From Oryzomonas sagensis (lineage in GTDB: Bacteria; Desulfobacterota; Desulfuromonadia; Geobacterales; Pseudopelobacteraceae), in NCBI RefSeq assembly GCF_008802355.1, contig NZ_VZRA01000009.1, forward strand, positions 1 through 36,895: a DNA stretch of 36,895 bases, written 5' to 3'. Positions 24,867 through 33,104 of this stretch are shown here, piece after piece. Each line of letters starts with the position of its first letter. Position 1 is the first letter of the stretch. A program made the translations under genes and the position numbers. Below the pieces are notes generated by a model that ran no database searches, had not been told where the DNA came from, and saw only the letters and a list, made by a program, of their open reading frames with translations.

Positions 24867-25958
24867 TTACCCCGGAGGCCAGGTAAAATCACGTCCGGCC
24901 AGGAGGTGAAAATGGATGTGGAATACCGATTGCCCGACCCCTTCGCCATTGTTCTGCACCACACGAAAGCCGGACTCGGCATATCCCTTCTGGCGGGCTA
25001 TTTCCCCCGCCTTTCTCATGATAGAGCCGACAAGGGCGTCGTCCTGTTCGGTCATATCGAGACAGTTGACGAAATGCCTCTTCGGCAGAAGGAGGAGATG
25101 CAGGGGCGCTTTGGGGGCGATGTCTTCGATGACCAGAATCTGATCGTCCTCAAACACTTTTTTTGACGGTATCTCGCCGCGGATGATCTTGCAGAAGATG
25201 CACGCGTCCATGGTTGTTCCCTCCGGTATTTCCAGCAATATCAAAAACTCCCGGTTGCCGTCCGCCCCCAGGATAGGTGAATCGCACACCCCGCGCACCA
25301 GAACGCCAAGCTCCGTTGCGGCCCGCCTGACGCCTGCGATGGCCTGCTCGTGAGCGGCCGGGTCGCGGACGATGCCCCCCTGTCCCACGTCGCCCCGGGG
25401 CACCTCGAACTGGGGCTTGATCAAGGCGATGACACGGCCGCCCGGCCGCATCAGCCCGACCACGGCCGGCAGGACTCTGGAGAGCGGGATAAAGGAGGCG
25501 TCGATGACCGCCAGTGCCGGTACTTCATTGAGCCGGTCCGGGGTGAGGTGGCGGATGTTGGTCCGCTCCAGATTGACGACCCGCGGGTCCTGGCGCAGCT
25601 TCCACGCCAACTGGCCGTACCCCACGTCCACCGCAAAGACCTTGCGGCTCCCGGACTGTAACAGGCAATCGGTGAACCCACCGGTGGAGGCCCCCACATC
25701 CAGGGCCACCAGCCCGCCCACGTCCACGCCGAATGCGTCCAGCGCCTTTTTGAGCTTGAGGCCGCCCCGGCTGACGTAGGGCAGCGCCTCCCCTTTGATG
25801 CGGATTTCCGCAGCGGCCGTCACCTGCTGTCCGGCTTTGTCGGCGGCATGGTCGCCCACCACCACCTGGCCGGCCATGATGAGGGCCTGGGCCTTTTCCC
25901 GGGTGGGGGCCAGGCCGCGCGCGACCATCAGCTTATCCAGGCGTTCCTTTGTCGCCAT
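24867..25958 (-). CDS. tlyA: TlyA-type rRNA 2'-O-methyltransferase fused in frame to a HIT domain
   Basis: 363 residues. Residues 1-248 are a complete TlyA: an S4 RNA-binding domain (RLDKLMVARGLAPTREKAQALIMAGQVVVG) and an FtsJ-like methyltransferase (LDVGASTGGFTDCLLQSG, IDASFIPLSRVLP, ALIKPQFEV), which methylates ribosomal RNA using SAM. Residues 250-363 are a complete HIT nucleotide hydrolase (MDACIFCKIIRGEIPSKK) with the histidine triad FHIHFHLL. No stop codon separates them. A strong GGAGGG sits 7 nt before the Met codon at 25211, so the HIT part (24867-25211) can also be made alone. The two are probably normally separate neighbours. The ATG overlaps the pyrE stop by 1 nt. Confidence 0.88.
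   Translation of the reverse strand: MATKERLDKLMVARGLAPTREKAQALIMAGQVVVGDHAADKAGQQVTAAAEIRIKGEALPYVSRGGLKLKKALDAFGVDVGGLVALDVGASTGGFTDCLLQSGSRKVFAVDVGYGQLAWKLRQDPRVVNLERTNIRHLTPDRLNEVPALAVIDASFIPLSRVLPAVVGLMRPGGRVIALIKPQFEVPRGDVGQGGIVRDPAAHEQAIAGVRRAATELGVLVRGVCDSPILGADGNREFLILLEIPEGTTMDACIFCKIIRGEIPSKKVFEDDQILVIEDIAPKAPLHLLLLPKRHFVNCLDMTEQDDALVGSIMRKAGEIARQKGYAESGFRVVQNNGEGVGQSVFHIHFHLLAGRDFTWPPG

Positions 25959-26498: not shown

Positions 26499-26506
<8 letters not shown>
25958..26506 (-). CDS. pyrE: orotate phosphoribosyltransferase
   Basis: PyrE of 182 residues, which joins orotate to PRPP to make OMP in pyrimidine synthesis. The PRPP motif is [15 protein letters not shown] (about 120-134). 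Other blocks are [33 protein letters not shown] and [13 protein letters not shown] (catalytic Lys loop). Length is normal. The start lies inside the end of purF (8-nt overlap), so pyrimidine and purine synthesis genes are translated together. Confidence 0.95.
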
Positions 26507-27926
<1,420 letters not shown>

Positions 27927-27951: not shown

Positions 27952-28779
27952 TTAAACGAGATTTTTCCTCACATACTCCGCCGCGTTGCGGTACAGCTTC
28001 AGACCATCCCCCTCTTCCGGCAGCTCTTCCCGGGTCCAGCGGGGATGTTGGGTGTAATGCACAAAGGCCTCGGGATGGGGCATCAGGCCCATCAGGCGGC
28101 CGGTCGGGTCGCACAGCCCGGCGATGGCGTTCTGGGCTCCGTTGGGATTCAGGGGAAACTCCATGGTCGCCGCCGCGTAATCCGGACCGGAGTATTTCAG
28201 TACCGCCAGGTGTTCCCGCTCGATGCGCTCCAGGGTTGCAGGCGAATCGCAGAGGAATTTCCCCTCGCCGTGGCGCATCGGCAGGTAGATACCGTGCTCG
28301 ATCCCCGTGGTGAAGACGCTGGGCGAGGCCGCATCGGTCTTCAGATACACCCACCGATCCTGAAAACGACCGCAGTCGTTAAAGGTCAGGGTCGTGCGCT
28401 GGGTCAGGAAATCGCCGTCAAAACCGGGCAACATGCCCATCTTGACCATCAACTGGAAGCCGTTGCAGACCCCCAGGATCAGCTTGCCGGCAGCGATGAA
28501 ACGGGTGAACTGCTCCACCAGTTTTTCGCCCGTACCGCTGACGCCGGCGTGTTTCAAGCGGTTGGCCTGGGCCTTGGCGCTCCCCAGGTCGTCCCCGTCC
28601 AGAAAACCGCCGGTCAGGTTGAGAAAATGGAAGTCGTCCAGCCGGACCTCTCCGGAGAGGATCTCGGCGATATGGGCGATGACCGCCTCGTCGAAGCCTC
28701 CCAGACGGCACGCATGGGCCGCCTCGGTCTCGCAGTTGGTGCCGTTTCCGGTGATGACGATGGCTCTCGTTTTTTTCAT
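27952..28779 (-). CDS. purQ: phosphoribosylformylglycinamidine synthase glutaminase subunit
   Basis: PurQ of 275 residues, a class I glutamine amidotransferase that supplies ammonia to PurL for FGAM synthesis. The nucleophile is the Cys in ILGVCNGFQLM, and the His-Glu pair is in LMPHPEAFVHY. It is longer than the 230-residue PurQ of Bacillus and resembles the glutaminase domain of large PurL enzymes. The start has TAGGA upstream. It lies 18 nt after the restriction-modification cassette that separates it from its partner purL. Confidence 0.93.
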   Translation of the reverse strand: MKKTRAIVITGNGTNCETEAAHACRLGGFDEAVIAHIAEILSGEVRLDDFHFLNLTGGFLDGDDLGSAKAQANRLKHAGVSGTGEKLVEQFTRFIAAGKLILGVCNGFQLMVKMGMLPGFDGDFLTQRTTLTFNDCGRFQDRWVYLKTDAASPSVFTTGIEHGIYLPMRHGEGKFLCDSPATLERIEREHLAVLKYSGPDYAAATMEFPLNPNGAQNAIAGLCDPTGRLMGLMPHPEAFVHYTQHPRWTREELPEEGDGLKLYRNAAEYVRKNLV

Positions 28780-28797
28780 ATAGCTATTCCTATTGGT

Positions 28798-29478
28798 CTA
28801 TTTACTGTTGTACTTTGTTTTCTTTTCGAACAAACGGGGTTGAGGCAATTCAATTACTTTTTGATTATTCCAAATAATGCCGTTTCGTTTGTTTCCCTCT
28901 TCGGATATTTCATTCCCCCATGCAACCCAACCTGGCTGAGGGTGCCGGCAGAATAATTCCAAATATGGGCCTGGACTGCATGACTCAATCAAACCATACT
29001 GCTCGTCGGGTTTACGTGAGTGTTCACGTTTGTTTGAAGAAATAATATTTACTTGGCGGCGTCCGGCATCCAGAGTTCGCATTTTTCCACGTATTCCGAA
29101 TAAGATCAATTCTGTAACATTACGAAAGTAAAAACCGACTCCACGACCATCGGGGCCGCCATCTTTTCTTGTTTTATACCAAACCAGATTACTTTTGTAA
29201 GTGAAACCCCAACGACGCATGACTTCAAGCCCCTCGGCGAGAAGTGCATTGGGAACCCAAAGATAGAGGTGACTCTTTTGAGCAGCGACGTCTTGGACTG
29301 GCAGCGACATTATTTCTTCAAGCGCCATCGTGGGGTAACGAAGCAGGCGTTGGTGTTCAGGCGCCATTTTGCCAGTCCGATTGTTAAACTGCCAGGGTGG
29401 ATCGGCTAATATTGTACCGAACTCTCCTGTAATTCTTCTTTTAAAATCATCGACAGCAGTACTGTTTTGTTTGCTCAT
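28798..29478 (-). CDS. MT-A70 family adenine-N6 DNA methyltransferase of a type II R-M system
   Basis: 226-residue MT-A70-type methyltransferase. The catalytic motif is D26-P-P-W29 in ILADPPWQF. Other blocks are LYLWVPNALLAEGLEVMRRW, SNLVWYKT and the RNVTELILFG strand. The family transfers methyl from SAM to adenine N6. Its ATG overlaps the stop of the restriction-enzyme gene by one base (TGATG), which fixes this start over an in-frame ATG 54 nt upstream. It should protect host DNA from the adjacent nuclease. The segment is more AT-rich than the pur genes on both sides. Last gene of the cassette, 18 nt before purQ. Confidence 0.88.
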   Translation of the reverse strand: MSKQNSTAVDDFKRRITGEFGTILADPPWQFNNRTGKMAPEHQRLLRYPTMALEEIMSLPVQDVAAQKSHLYLWVPNALLAEGLEVMRRWGFTYKSNLVWYKTRKDGGPDGRGVGFYFRNVTELILFGIRGKMRTLDAGRRQVNIISSNKREHSRKPDEQYGLIESCSPGPYLELFCRHPQPGWVAWGNEISEEGNKRNGIIWNNQKVIELPQPRLFEKKTKYNSK

Positions 29479-30068
29479 CAGCAGTCCTCGAGATAAAGTG
29501 ATTTTTTGATACCGAAAACCAAGAGAGGACAACCGGCACCGCCGCCACCTTCGATTCGTGGCAACAGTTTACTCATATGTGTCGTTGAAGAACCGTAAGA
29601 AGAACCGCGCTCCAAACTGTCAAAAACGTCCTGAAGCTCATCGCAGCGAGTAATAATGATACCGGCACAAATCGCTCGAAGATCAAAAAGCAAGCGAAAA
29701 TTATTTAAATCTCGATCAAAAAAAGGATCTTTATTGTTCCATTCTATTTCAAGAGCAACACGATTTTTATAACAATCAACCTTATGTGTTGGAGAATCCA
29801 TCTGATGTTGGTCAACTATGACTTTTGTCTCAAAAGATTTTTCAACCCATCCTTTTCTCGAGAATGCACTGTCAATTGACTCAGCAACCTTGGATTTTCT
29901 GCCACCACCGACGGTAATCCAACTTTTCCTAAGTCGAAACTCCATCAAAATTGAAATAATATCATTCCATTCACTTGTGAAGTCACTCTTTAAGATAGCA
30001 CATGCATGTTTCCATTCGTGTACTTCATAATTATCACGAATATAGTCAGGAATTAGCTCAATACCCAT
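29478..30068 (-). CDS. BglII/BstYI-family type II restriction endonuclease
   Basis: 196-residue protein with the BglII-family active site: D98 in HKVDCY, then E107-I-E109 in VALEIEWN, matching the D-x8-E-x-(Q/E) spacing of BglII (as I recall it). The NKDPFFDRDLNNFRLLF stretch after it is also typical of the family. BglII and BstYI cut sites with a GATC core, so a GATC-containing target is likely; the outer bases cannot be predicted. The start has GGGG 5 nt upstream. The gene begins 45 nt after the purL stop. AT-rich and apparently foreign relative to the pur genes. Confidence 0.85.
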   Translation of the reverse strand: MGIELIPDYIRDNYEVHEWKHACAILKSDFTSEWNDIISILMEFRLRKSWITVGGGRKSKVAESIDSAFSRKGWVEKSFETKVIVDQHQMDSPTHKVDCYKNRVALEIEWNNKDPFFDRDLNNFRLLFDLRAICAGIIITRCDELQDVFDSLERGSSYGSSTTHMSKLLPRIEGGGGAGCPLLVFGIKKSLYLEDC

Positions 30069-30113
30069 AACGACCCCATTTCAGCACAATCATTTGATAG
30101 GCATACCAGCCTC

Positions 30114-33104
30114 TTACAGCTCCCTCAATGTCTTCTGCCAGGCTTCCTTCAACTCCGCCAGCCCGGCACGCACAACGGCGGCACCATTCAGTCCCACGAT
30201 GGCGAGCACCGGCTCCGGGGTCACCACGCCGATGGAGGCGAAACAGTTGCCGCTCATGATGTTCTCAAATTCTTCCCGTTGTTCGGGGTGAACCGTAACA
30301 AGATGGCGCGATGCCGATTCGGAAAAGAGCAGCGTCGCATCGGATTTACCCGCCATGTCCCCTTTCCAGAGCACCCGGGAGAGTTCCAGGCTCATGCCGT
30401 AGCCCCCGGCAAAGGCCGACTCGGCCGCGGCCACGGCCAGGCCGCCGTCGGAGAGGTCGTGGCAGGAGGCCGCCAGCCGCTGCGTGACCGCCTGATGGTA
30501 GGCTTGGTAGCGTCGGTAGGCCCGGCCGGTGTCCACCAGTGGCACCTTGTTGCCGATGGCGCCCTTGAGGGCAAAATATTCGGAACCGCCCAACTCGTCG
30601 CCGGTTTTGCCCAGCAGATACACGATATCGCCCGGCCGTTTCACGTCCATGGTGACGGCGTTGCGGGCATCCTCGATCTTGCCGATCACCGAGAAGAGCA
30701 GGGTCGGCGGAATGGAAATCTTGGTGGAGCCGTCGTAGAAATCGTTCTTCATGGAATCCTTGCCCGAGATCAGCGGCAGGTTGTAGGCCATGCAGATGTC
30801 GTACAGCGCCTGGTTGGAACGCACCAGTTGGGCCATCTTGTAGGGGCCGTCCGGGGTTTTCTCCGACAGGACCGGGTCGCACCAGCAGAAGTTGTCCAGG
30901 CCGGCCACCAGATCAAGGGAGCCGCCCACGGCCACGTAGTTGCGCAACGCCTCGTCGATGGCGTTGGCGGTCATGTGGTAGGTATCGATATCGGAATAGC
31001 GCGGGCAGATGCCGTGGGCCGTCACCACCCCTTCGAAGGAATCCAGGATCGGCCGCACCACGGCGGCGTCGGAGGGGCCGTCGTTGGCAACGCCGCTGAA
31101 CGGCTTCACCACCGAGCCCCCCTGGACCTCGTGATCGTAGCGGCGCACTACCGACTCCTTGGAGCAGATGTTGAGCGCCCCGAGCAGGGCGGCCAGATCG
31201 TCGGAGTAATCCCCCTTGACCTCGACAACCGGTTCGGCATGCCGGGGCGGGTCCCATTTGGCGGGCAGTTGCAGCGGCGGCAGCCCCTCGTGCATGAACG
31301 CCATGGGCAGCCAGGCTACGGTACGGTCATCATAGAGGATATGGAATACGCCGTTGTCGGTGAATTCGCCCAGTACCGTGGCCTCGACGCCGAAACGTTT
31401 GGCCATGGCCAGGAACTCGTCGATCCGTTCGGGCGGCACCGCCAGGGACATGCGTTCCTGGGCTTCGGAGATGATAATTTCCCAGGGGTTGAGTCCGGGA
31501 TATTTAAGCGGGGCTTTAGCGAGGTCCATGCGACAGCCGCCGCACTCGCCGGCCATCTCGCCCACCGAGGAGGAAAGCCCCCCGGCGCCGTTGTCGGTGA
31601 TGAAGCGGTAGAGCGCCTTGTCCCGCGCCCGGATCAGGAAGTCGAACATGCGTTTCTGGGTGATCGGGTCGCCGATCTGCACCGCCGTGACCGGCGAGTT
31701 TTCGTTCAGCTCTTCGGACGAAAAGGTCGCGCCGTGAATGCCGTCCTTGCCGATACGGCCGCCGGTCATCACGATCAGGTCCCCCGGTTTGATGGATTTC
31801 TCGTGGCTCGGCTGGCCGTTGATCTCACTCGGCATGATCCCGGCGGTACCGCAGAAAACCAGCGGCTTGCCGGCGAAACGCTCGTCAAAGACCAGAGAAC
31901 CGTTCACCGTGGGGATGCCGCTCTTGTTGCCGCCATGCTCGACCCCCTCCACCACCCCTTCGTAGATGCGGCGGGGATGGAGCAGGCGCGCGGGGAGCGC
32001 TTTTTCATAGAACGGGTCGGCGAAGCAGAACACGTCGGTATTGAAGATCAGCTTGGCCCCCTGGCCGGTGCCGAAGGGGTCGCGATTGACCCCCACAATG
32101 CCGGTCAACGCCCCGCCGTAAGGGTCCAGGGCCGACGGCGAGTTGTGGGTTTCCACCTTGAAGACCAGCGACTGCCGGTCATTGAATTTGATCACCCCGG
32201 CATTGTCCTTGAACACCGACAGGCAGAAGTCCTTATCGCCCAATTTAGCGCGCACATCCCTGGTGGTCCGCTGGATGAACGACTTGAACAGGGATTTGAT
32301 CTCCTGCTTGTTGCCCTCTTCATCCTCGTACTGCACCGTACCGGAAAAGATCTTGTGCTTGCAGTGTTCCGACCAGGTCTGGGCCAGGCACTCCAACTCC
32401 ACATCGGTCGGGTTGGCGCCCAGGCCTACGGTGGCGCGCTCCGCCACGACCTGCGGGTCGCGGTAATGGGCCTGGATGATCCGCATCTCCTCCAGGGTCA
32501 GGGCCAGAACCCCCTCCTTGCTGATACGCAGCAACTCCTCGTCAGACACGTTCAGATCAATTTCACTGACCTCGGCCTTGGCCTCGGCCAGCACCTTGGG
32601 GACCGTCGGCGCAAAACCGCGCTTGGCCATGAAATCGGCGGCCGAGAGCACGCTGTAGCGCTGAATGAGGGTGTTGCACAAGAGGCCGGTGGCGATTTGC
32701 TCGACATCGGCGACCTCAAAGGCGCCCTTCAGCAGGTACTGCACCGAATAGTAGACCCCTTCGCCGGCGGCAAAAGAACGGCCGGTCAGGTATTCCACGG
32801 CTTCCCGGGCGGTGCGCCCCACGTTGTCGGTCACGCCGGGGCGGAAACCGACCTCCACGGCACAATCGAAACCGGCCGCCAAGGGCCGTTCGATGCTCCA
32901 CTCCTGGATCACCGGGTCGCTGAACGGGCCTGCCGCGGCCTGTTGCAGCTCCTCCGGCGTCAAGGCGGCATCAACGGTATACACGTCGATGGTGCGGACC
33001 TCGTCCACCGCCAGATGCAGGAAATGCTCGATCTCCCGCTTGATCCGTTCACCGCAGGCGTCGCGGACGCTCTCCTTCAGGGCAACTTCAATTCTGTGCG
33101 CCAT
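30114..33104 (-). CDS. purL: phosphoribosylformylglycinamidine synthase, PurSL-type
   Basis: 996-residue synthetase subunit that converts FGAR, ATP and ammonia to FGAM. The first 170 residues form a PurS-like domain (MAHRIEVALKESVRDACGER), fused to the PurL core: TWSEHCKHKIFSGTV, FKVETHNSPSALDPYGGALT, GVNRDPFGTGQGAKLIFNTD, HGGNKSGIPTVNGSL, DGIHGATFSSEEL and DNGAGGLSSSVGEMAGECGG. It lacks a C-terminal glutaminase, which is supplied by PurQ. It starts 1 nt after the mscS-like stop. The partner purQ is displaced by the restriction-modification cassette. Confidence 0.95.
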   Translation of the reverse strand: MAHRIEVALKESVRDACGERIKREIEHFLHLAVDEVRTIDVYTVDAALTPEELQQAAAGPFSDPVIQEWSIERPLAAGFDCAVEVGFRPGVTDNVGRTAREAVEYLTGRSFAAGEGVYYSVQYLLKGAFEVADVEQIATGLLCNTLIQRYSVLSAADFMAKRGFAPTVPKVLAEAKAEVSEIDLNVSDEELLRISKEGVLALTLEEMRIIQAHYRDPQVVAERATVGLGANPTDVELECLAQTWSEHCKHKIFSGTVQYEDEEGNKQEIKSLFKSFIQRTTRDVRAKLGDKDFCLSVFKDNAGVIKFNDRQSLVFKVETHNSPSALDPYGGALTGIVGVNRDPFGTGQGAKLIFNTDVFCFADPFYEKALPARLLHPRRIYEGVVEGVEHGGNKSGIPTVNGSLVFDERFAGKPLVFCGTAGIMPSEINGQPSHEKSIKPGDLIVMTGGRIGKDGIHGATFSSEELNENSPVTAVQIGDPITQKRMFDFLIRARDKALYRFITDNGAGGLSSSVGEMAGECGGCRMDLAKAPLKYPGLNPWEIIISEAQERMSLAVPPERIDEFLAMAKRFGVEATVLGEFTDNGVFHILYDDRTVAWLPMAFMHEGLPPLQLPAKWDPPRHAEPVVEVKGDYSDDLAALLGALNICSKESVVRRYDHEVQGGSVVKPFSGVANDGPSDAAVVRPILDSFEGVVTAHGICPRYSDIDTYHMTANAIDEALRNYVAVGGSLDLVAGLDNFCWCDPVLSEKTPDGPYKMAQLVRSNQALYDICMAYNLPLISGKDSMKNDFYDGSTKISIPPTLLFSVIGKIEDARNAVTMDVKRPGDIVYLLGKTGDELGGSEYFALKGAIGNKVPLVDTGRAYRRYQAYHQAVTQRLAASCHDLSDGGLAVAAAESAFAGGYGMSLELSRVLWKGDMAGKSDATLLFSESASRHLVTVHPEQREEFENIMSGNCFASIGVVTPEPVLAIVGLNGAAVVRAGLAELKEAWQKTLREL

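Follow-up and report, generated by a model that had tools for sequence, protein, structure and literature searches.

Why does a restriction-modification (R-M) pair lie between two subunit genes of the purine operon, where did it come from, and how might it be expressed? These questions are raised by a stretch of 36,895 nucleotides from Oryzomonas sagensis (contig NZ_VZRA01000009.1, positions 1 to 36,895), here called the window. The reading that we favour, with a probability of roughly 0.8, is that the pair is a Type II R-M system of the Nph3I kind, gained horizontally, expressed by read-through and representing a recurrent arrival in a cargo slot. According to this reading, a compact cassette would have entered cleanly after the stop codon of purL and ahead of the purQ start, and would be read through from the purine operon, lacking any promoter or controller gene that we could find. 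The nuclease would cut RGATCY, the methyltransferase, translated by stop/start coupling with the nuclease, would produce RG-m6A-TCY, and the cassette tail would give purQ a new ribosome-site-like motif. The slot would have been taken by the same cassette lineage at least twice, and probably three times.

A cassette gained at the purL-purQ junction

The gene order on the minus strand was confirmed to be purL, nuclease, methyltransferase and purQ, with gaps of 45, -1 and 18 nt, as given in a preliminary description of the window. The upstream flank, purL (30114..33104), encodes FGAM synthase II with PurS fused N-terminally (Pfam AIRS, AIRS_C, FGAR-AT_linker and PurS; 97% amino acid identity to the nearest sister genome, G002), and is followed by a leader of 45 nt between its stop codon and the nuclease ATG (30069..30113). 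The restriction endonuclease of 196 amino acids belongs to the BglII/BstYI family (29478..30068), and the next gene encodes an MT-A70 adenine methyltransferase of 226 amino acids with an ADPPW motif (28798..29478). A spacer of 18 nt with an AGGAA ribosome-site-like motif (28780..28797) leads to purQ, which encodes the glutaminase subunit (27952..28779; PF13507, E=6e-86; 97-98% amino acid identity to G002), and the same gene run continues with purF (26499..27926; Pfam GATase_7 and Pribosyltran). The methyltransferase ATG at 29478 overlaps the nuclease stop codon as TGATG, which yields the protein of 226 amino acids, and a longer open reading frame (ORF) of 244 amino acids begins at an upstream TTG.

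The cassette of about 1.3 kb contains neither a mobility gene nor a third gene. It had been described as AT-rich and as flanked by neither integrase nor repeats. The GC content was indeed low, at 39.5% in the nuclease gene and 44.7% in the methyltransferase gene versus 63% in purL and 62% in purQ, and none of the 8 window proteins scanned for families was an integrase. The neighbourhoods of the two junctions (131 and 121 nt) had no common word of 7 nt or longer, so no flanking direct repeat is present there, and no target duplication was detected by this word comparison. It was also noted that the N-terminus of PurL is a PurS domain (PF02700, residues 4-72), so that a single protein unites two subunits of the FGAM synthase complex. 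Elsewhere in the window, a single ORF of 363 amino acids (24867-25958, minus strand) combines an S4/FtsJ (TlyA-like) methyltransferase with a HIT/DcpS domain, and is either a true fusion or the product of a lost stop codon.

The cassette was suspected to be absent from close relatives, and a comparison of the purL-purQ intervals bore this out. All five other genomes of the genus (G001 to G005) have an empty junction, with only 4 nt, TGAC or TGAT, from the last purL codon to the purQ ATG, at the place where the window has TAA, the 45 nt leader, the two genes, 18 nt and ATG; the leader is likewise missing from these empty sites. Matches to the BglII family were found in none of the five genomes, two of which are incomplete (G001 88%, G005 83%). 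The cassette is therefore a gain. Over the final 60 nt of purL the window and G002 agree at 59 positions, and over the initial 60 nt of purQ at 55, with all purQ mismatches within the first 20 nt (15 of 20 equal; 15 to 17 of 20 across the five sisters). The flanks are thus native to the genus, except perhaps for the first few purQ codons.

To place the junction in a wider context, 141 genomes of the order were searched, of which 135, the window's included, had a PurQ match, and 131 regions from 130 genomes were compared after partial or broken PurQ matches in G021, G045, G074 and G096 had been left out. The assumption that purL and purQ normally adjoin did not survive this comparison. The window's family is represented, its own genome excluded, by 70 regions, 10 of which were cut without a measurable interval, and recQ lies between the two genes in 47 of the 60 assessable regions. 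The other intervals are of at most 10 nt (10 regions) or contain an R-M cassette (2) or a PAS-GGDEF protein (1). The remaining three families contributed 61 regions, all but 1 of them measurable. The interval is of at most 350 nt in 56 of these, and the others contain a Uma2-type gene (2), recQ (1) or a gap of 413 nt (1).

Extra ORFs of at least 70 amino acids occur in 16 of the 47 recQ intervals. We scanned 20 slot ORFs from 14 genomes (G093, G116 and G127 excluded) for families, and all but 3 had a match. The matches include a Phd antitoxin with PIN (G015), PIN (G097 and G121), a HicB-like antitoxin (G125), HEPN (G090), HepT-like and NTase-binding proteins (G097), a nucleotidyltransferase (G008), a D12 adenine methyltransferase (G131), an SNF2 helicase (G101), a DUF4143 ATPase (G024), Uma2 (G023), DUF6880 (G092), an HTH protein (G098), a cupin (G097) and a GGDEF protein (G129). 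PADLOC models matched 6 of 10 slot ORFs, in several cases with a candidate system or with a helicase domain of general occurrence. In G131 (locus L223, 5365-7570, between purL and recQ), the D12-class methyltransferase gene overlaps that of a protein of 376 amino acids with no match in Pfam or PADLOC, and these two may be another R-M pair in the slot, unrelated to that of the window.

The purL-purQ junction in the window's family is thus a compact slot for repair, toxin-antitoxin and restriction-like cargo, open to a survey of defence or toxin genes. It resembles the core defence hotspots described for Pseudomonas aeruginosa in being a fixed place in the core genome that gathers varied defence genes, but according to that account the hotspots are built by numerous mobile elements (PMC10250203), whereas the slot in the window is the junction of two subunit genes within a single gene run.

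The two family members with an R-M cassette in this interval also emerged from a scan of a species-genome collection, in which at least 525 loci of the nuclease family were confirmed and the best 80 were analysed. Among these 80, the two closest nucleases, in loci L048 (92% identity) and L049 (90%), both lie between purL and purQ, and the remaining 78 are at most 77% identical. L048 and L049 correspond to genomes G132 and G020 (records Geobacter sp. UBA4074 and UBA5730), which belong to a second genus of the same family. Their PurL and PurQ proteins are 77-78% and 80-82% identical to those of the window, and their cassettes have the same kind of stop/start overlap, as TAATG. The cassette is missing from the junction in 10 of the 12 assessable genomes of that genus.

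This shared position raises the question of whether free cassettes were inserted repeatedly, or whether the cassette has long been resident at the junction in unsampled relatives and has spread through homologous recombination of the pur genes on its flanks. The second route is a serious contender, though somewhat less likely than not. In its favour, none of the best 80 of at least 525 loci exceeds 85% identity except the two at purL-purQ, and copies of a purL 3' end abut purQ in G131 and G133, where some cargo may have come with the purL end. By BLAST, a stretch of 41 nt in G131 that stops 3 nt short of purQ resembles a purL 3' end (85%, E=3e-7). Of the 30 nt directly ahead of purQ, 29 in G131 and 24 in G133 (L226; a copy not reported by BLAST) are those of the empty junction of G137, in comparison with 5-12 of 30 for the six further large intervals of that genus against any of four empty junctions. 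These copies hint that a purL end accompanied some of the slot cargo on entry. The window cassette has no trace of such a copy before purQ. Against recombination, purL of the window is native throughout, to its very end, and the purQ start is largely so; given the matches to G002, with mismatches only in the first 20 nt of purQ, any imported tract would be very short, although this comparison is blind to a donor from the same genus. Judged by eye, the three cassettes also differ from each other in both leader and tail.

Expression and genomic neighbourhood

A scan of positions 28600-30600 for sigma-70-type promoter sites gave none (2.1 expected), and the only terminator-like site in this interval (2.3 expected) is on the other strand, leaving none on the coding strand. 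Since neither a promoter-like sequence nor a controller gene was found for the cassette, its transcripts probably arise by read-through from the operon around it, and the stop/start overlap suggests that translation of the methyltransferase is probably coupled to that of the nuclease.

The placement of the endonuclease gene before the methyltransferase gene had been considered unusual, but it is the rule for this pair: just behind the nuclease gene and on its strand, a methyltransferase was matched in 77 of the 80 best loci (at least 525 in all), and two of the three exceptions (L074 and L083, but not L121) stop shortly past the nuclease. The same order within one operon is described for EcoRI and Eco29I, which are likened here by gene order and differ in having known promoters of their own as well as reverse promoters (PMC3874152). 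It was also noted that on plasmid NZ_CP099632.1 (L277) a related nuclease (58% identity) is followed by an opposite-strand gene annotated as DNA adenine methylase, so the partner gene may be exchangeable.

Since EcoRI and Eco29I are reported to transcribe the modification gene separately (PMC3874152), the cassette could likewise have a promoter of its own, at the purL end or, for the methyltransferase, inside the nuclease gene, and so escape control by the pur operon. We regard this as unlikely, if less so than the alternatives treated below. Room for a promoter is suggested by the 21 related loci with an upstream neighbour on the opposite strand, which have a median leader of 150 nt. The leader in the window is only 45 nt and the promoter scan was negative, and leaders are also shorter in the 37 loci that lie behind a same-strand neighbour (median 61 nt; p=3e-5), though short leaders are a general trait of genes in operons. 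Read-through from the purine operon is the simplest account of its probable expression.

Same-strand neighbours (ORFs of at least 150 amino acids) were found upstream in 37 of 58 loci, downstream in 33 of 53 and on both sides in 17 of 39, raw counts that rest on mechanically called ORFs and include related, non-independent loci. They show that operon-like interiors are common homes of the nuclease family, and do not imply a preference. Of 30 neighbour ORFs of relatives that were scanned, 28 had a match (the exceptions being L101:2711-5959 and L126:4255-5964). Within the 80 best loci (at least 525 in all), gltB-like and gltD-like genes are on either side of the pair in L060, and a dihydroorotase-like amidohydrolase and a DHODB Fe-S subunit in L063. 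The upstream neighbour is dapD in L050, L051, L064 and L071 by scan, with an ORF in L096 that is alike by length and gap only, nadE in L086, tatC in L068, DAHP synthase in L103 and the ribonucleotide reductase small chain in L111. A chorismate synthase gene begins 9 nt downstream of the methyltransferase in L067; an ORF of 369-373 amino acids occupies this position in five Rhodobacteraceae loci (L067, L094, L099, L114 and L116), of which L067 is the one scanned.

One might go further and propose that this R-M lineage, having no promoter or regulator of its own, targets core biosynthetic operons, where it inserts precisely after the stop codon of one subunit gene and before the start codon of the next, that restriction follows host biosynthetic transcription, that loss or mis-excision harms an essential pathway, and that purL-purQ, besides being preferred as a target, serves the family as a general defence slot. 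The repeated use of purL-purQ and the relatives at gltB-gltD, at dihydroorotase-DHODB subunit, after dapD and before aroC can be cited in favour of this proposal, which we consider doubtful; if true, it would tie restriction capacity to host biosynthetic transcription.

R-M systems between housekeeping genes are already known. NmeDI of Neisseria meningitidis resembles the window in lying between two subunit genes, pheS and pheT, and further systems in this species are described between hldA and hldD and between leuD and leuB (PMC7973814). NmeDI differs in its enzymes, with a restriction enzyme predicted for RCCGGY and an associated VSR, according to the same source (PMC7973814).

Enzyme kind and predicted specificity

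The nuclease matched PF09195 with 155.9 bits (cut-off 26, E=1e-45) and the methyltransferase matched PF05063 (MT-A70) with 111.6 bits (cut-off 23.9, E=5e-32) and contains ADPPWQF. Neither protein had a match in NCBIfam. The nuclease was also unmatched in PADLOC and PHROGs, while the methyltransferase was assigned to MTase_II by PADLOC and to four PHROGs families, two of which are named DNA methyltransferase. Searches of PDB sequences with the nuclease, as a single sequence or as a profile of its alignment A1, returned no restriction enzyme, and the relation to BstYI surfaced by fold comparison only. The predicted structure (pLDDT 92) had its best match in BstYI (PDB 2p0j, 1vrr and 1sdo; E to 3e-8, TM 0.62-0.70), followed by BamHI, and all 8 matches at E of at most 0.001 were chains of these two enzymes, which suggests a BstYI/BamHI-like fold at a sequence identity to BstYI of just 18-20%. 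The residues D98, E107 and E109, which we take to be the acidic catalytic residues with a role as in BamHI and BglII, are invariant across the 30 aligned sequences.

The pairing of a nuclease of this fold with an MT-A70 methyltransferase had been thought notable, but it has already been characterised as R.Nph3I/M.Nph3I of the Nitratiruptor phage NrS-3, where a BglII-family nuclease gene likewise precedes an MT-A70 gene on one strand (PMC10734518). A search of annotated phages with the nuclease matched 5 records, including Nitratiruptor phages NrS-2 and NrS-3. The NrS-3 nuclease and methyltransferase are each 65% identical to those of the window, with the same Pfam families and order, and the same arrangement occurs in a Mesorhizobium phage. 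The enzymes of the window are thus a further example of a characterised kind, with the difference that Nph3I is carried by a temperate phage (PMC10734518) and the window pair by a host biosynthetic operon.

As described, R.Nph3I cleaves each of the four RGATCY probes unless m6A blocks it, and SMRT sequencing revealed RG-m6A-TCY at almost 100% in phage and host; the adjoining M.Nph3I strongly favoured GGATCC in its assay, with more than 95% methylation versus about 32% for the other three sites (PMC10734518). BstYI is an RGATCY isoschizomer that, unlike R.Nph3I, is not sensitive to m6A (PMC10734518). From the homology to the Nph3I pair, the best fold match to BstYI and the three invariant acidic residues, the specificity of the window pair is expected to be RGATCY for cleavage and RG-m6A-TCY for methylation, a sharp prediction to draw from sequence alone. 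The earlier expectation of m6A in a motif with a GATC core is a sound prediction. The pair is most likely active on RGATCY and reliant on purine-operon read-through for its expression.

Counts of RGATCY sites gave observed/expected ratios of 0.69 in the window's own genome (273 kb), 0.71 and 0.78 in the other carriers and 0.78, 0.80 and 0.65 in non-carriers, with small samples for G132 (80 kb) and G006 (60 kb). Carriers and non-carriers are similar, so these counts are no independent sign of RGATCY restriction. That depletion is not specific to carriers would fit a pair that has lost restriction, or retains a negligible amount, and serves mainly as a methylation system, as would the internal stops in the nuclease frame of some relatives (L338, L342 and L073), which are apparently decayed copies. 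We nevertheless consider such a system very improbable in the window, where the nuclease frame is intact and the three acidic residues are those conserved in 30 of 30 aligned sequences. Furthermore, the nucleases of the three purL-purQ cassettes are 90-92% conserved while their silent sites are at chance; with both proteins about 86-92% identical, this indicates strong purifying selection on both cassette genes.

History of the cassette in two genera

The silent-site measure used here is the identity at fourfold-degenerate sites above that of a codon-box shuffle. Between G020 and G132 this excess was 0.03 for the cassette (50 of 148 sites, 47 by chance) versus 0.35 for purL, purQ and purF together (581 of 816, 453 by chance), and 0.27 for mscS. 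As a control, recQ in the slot tracked purL in three pairs (0.17/0.20, 0.23/0.16 and 0.10/0.10). With cassette silent sites at chance and those of the neighbours above it, the cassette copies must have split before the two genomes did, and at least one of the genomes has obtained its present copy separately, as a new arrival or a replacement. The cassette copies of G020 and G132 were thus clearly not co-inherited.

A single old insertion that predates the split of the two genera, then passed down vertically and disappeared from most descendants, would explain why three genomes of two genera share junction, gene order and stop/start overlap and why their nucleases form one clade in a tree of 39 rows (support 100/97, inner order without support), but it is contradicted for this pair by the silent sites, and the empty junctions in 5 of 5 same-genus genomes and the 10 of 12 second-genus genomes without the cassette leave it the least credible of the alternatives.

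The history favoured here, in which one cassette lineage reached the same junction repeatedly, and the purL-purQ slot itself were not found in our searches of the open-licence literature. The question has been posed of how complete R-M systems turn over rapidly despite their poor presence in mobile elements (PMC4176335), and the window provides a defined case, with a 1.3-kb cassette free of mobility genes, clean junctions, intact empty sites in sister genomes and recurrence at this junction in a second genus.

The silent sites indicate that this lineage has reached purL-purQ at least twice, either as a first arrival or by replacing an older copy. In comparisons of the window's genome with G020 and G132, the excess was 0.00 and 0.05 for the cassette, 0.17 and 0.21 for purL, purQ and purF, and 0.17 and 0.22 for mscS. 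The difference between the cassette and its neighbours is modest here, about 2-3 standard errors by a rough estimate, and points with less force in the same non-vertical direction; the lineage probably arrived at the junction three times.
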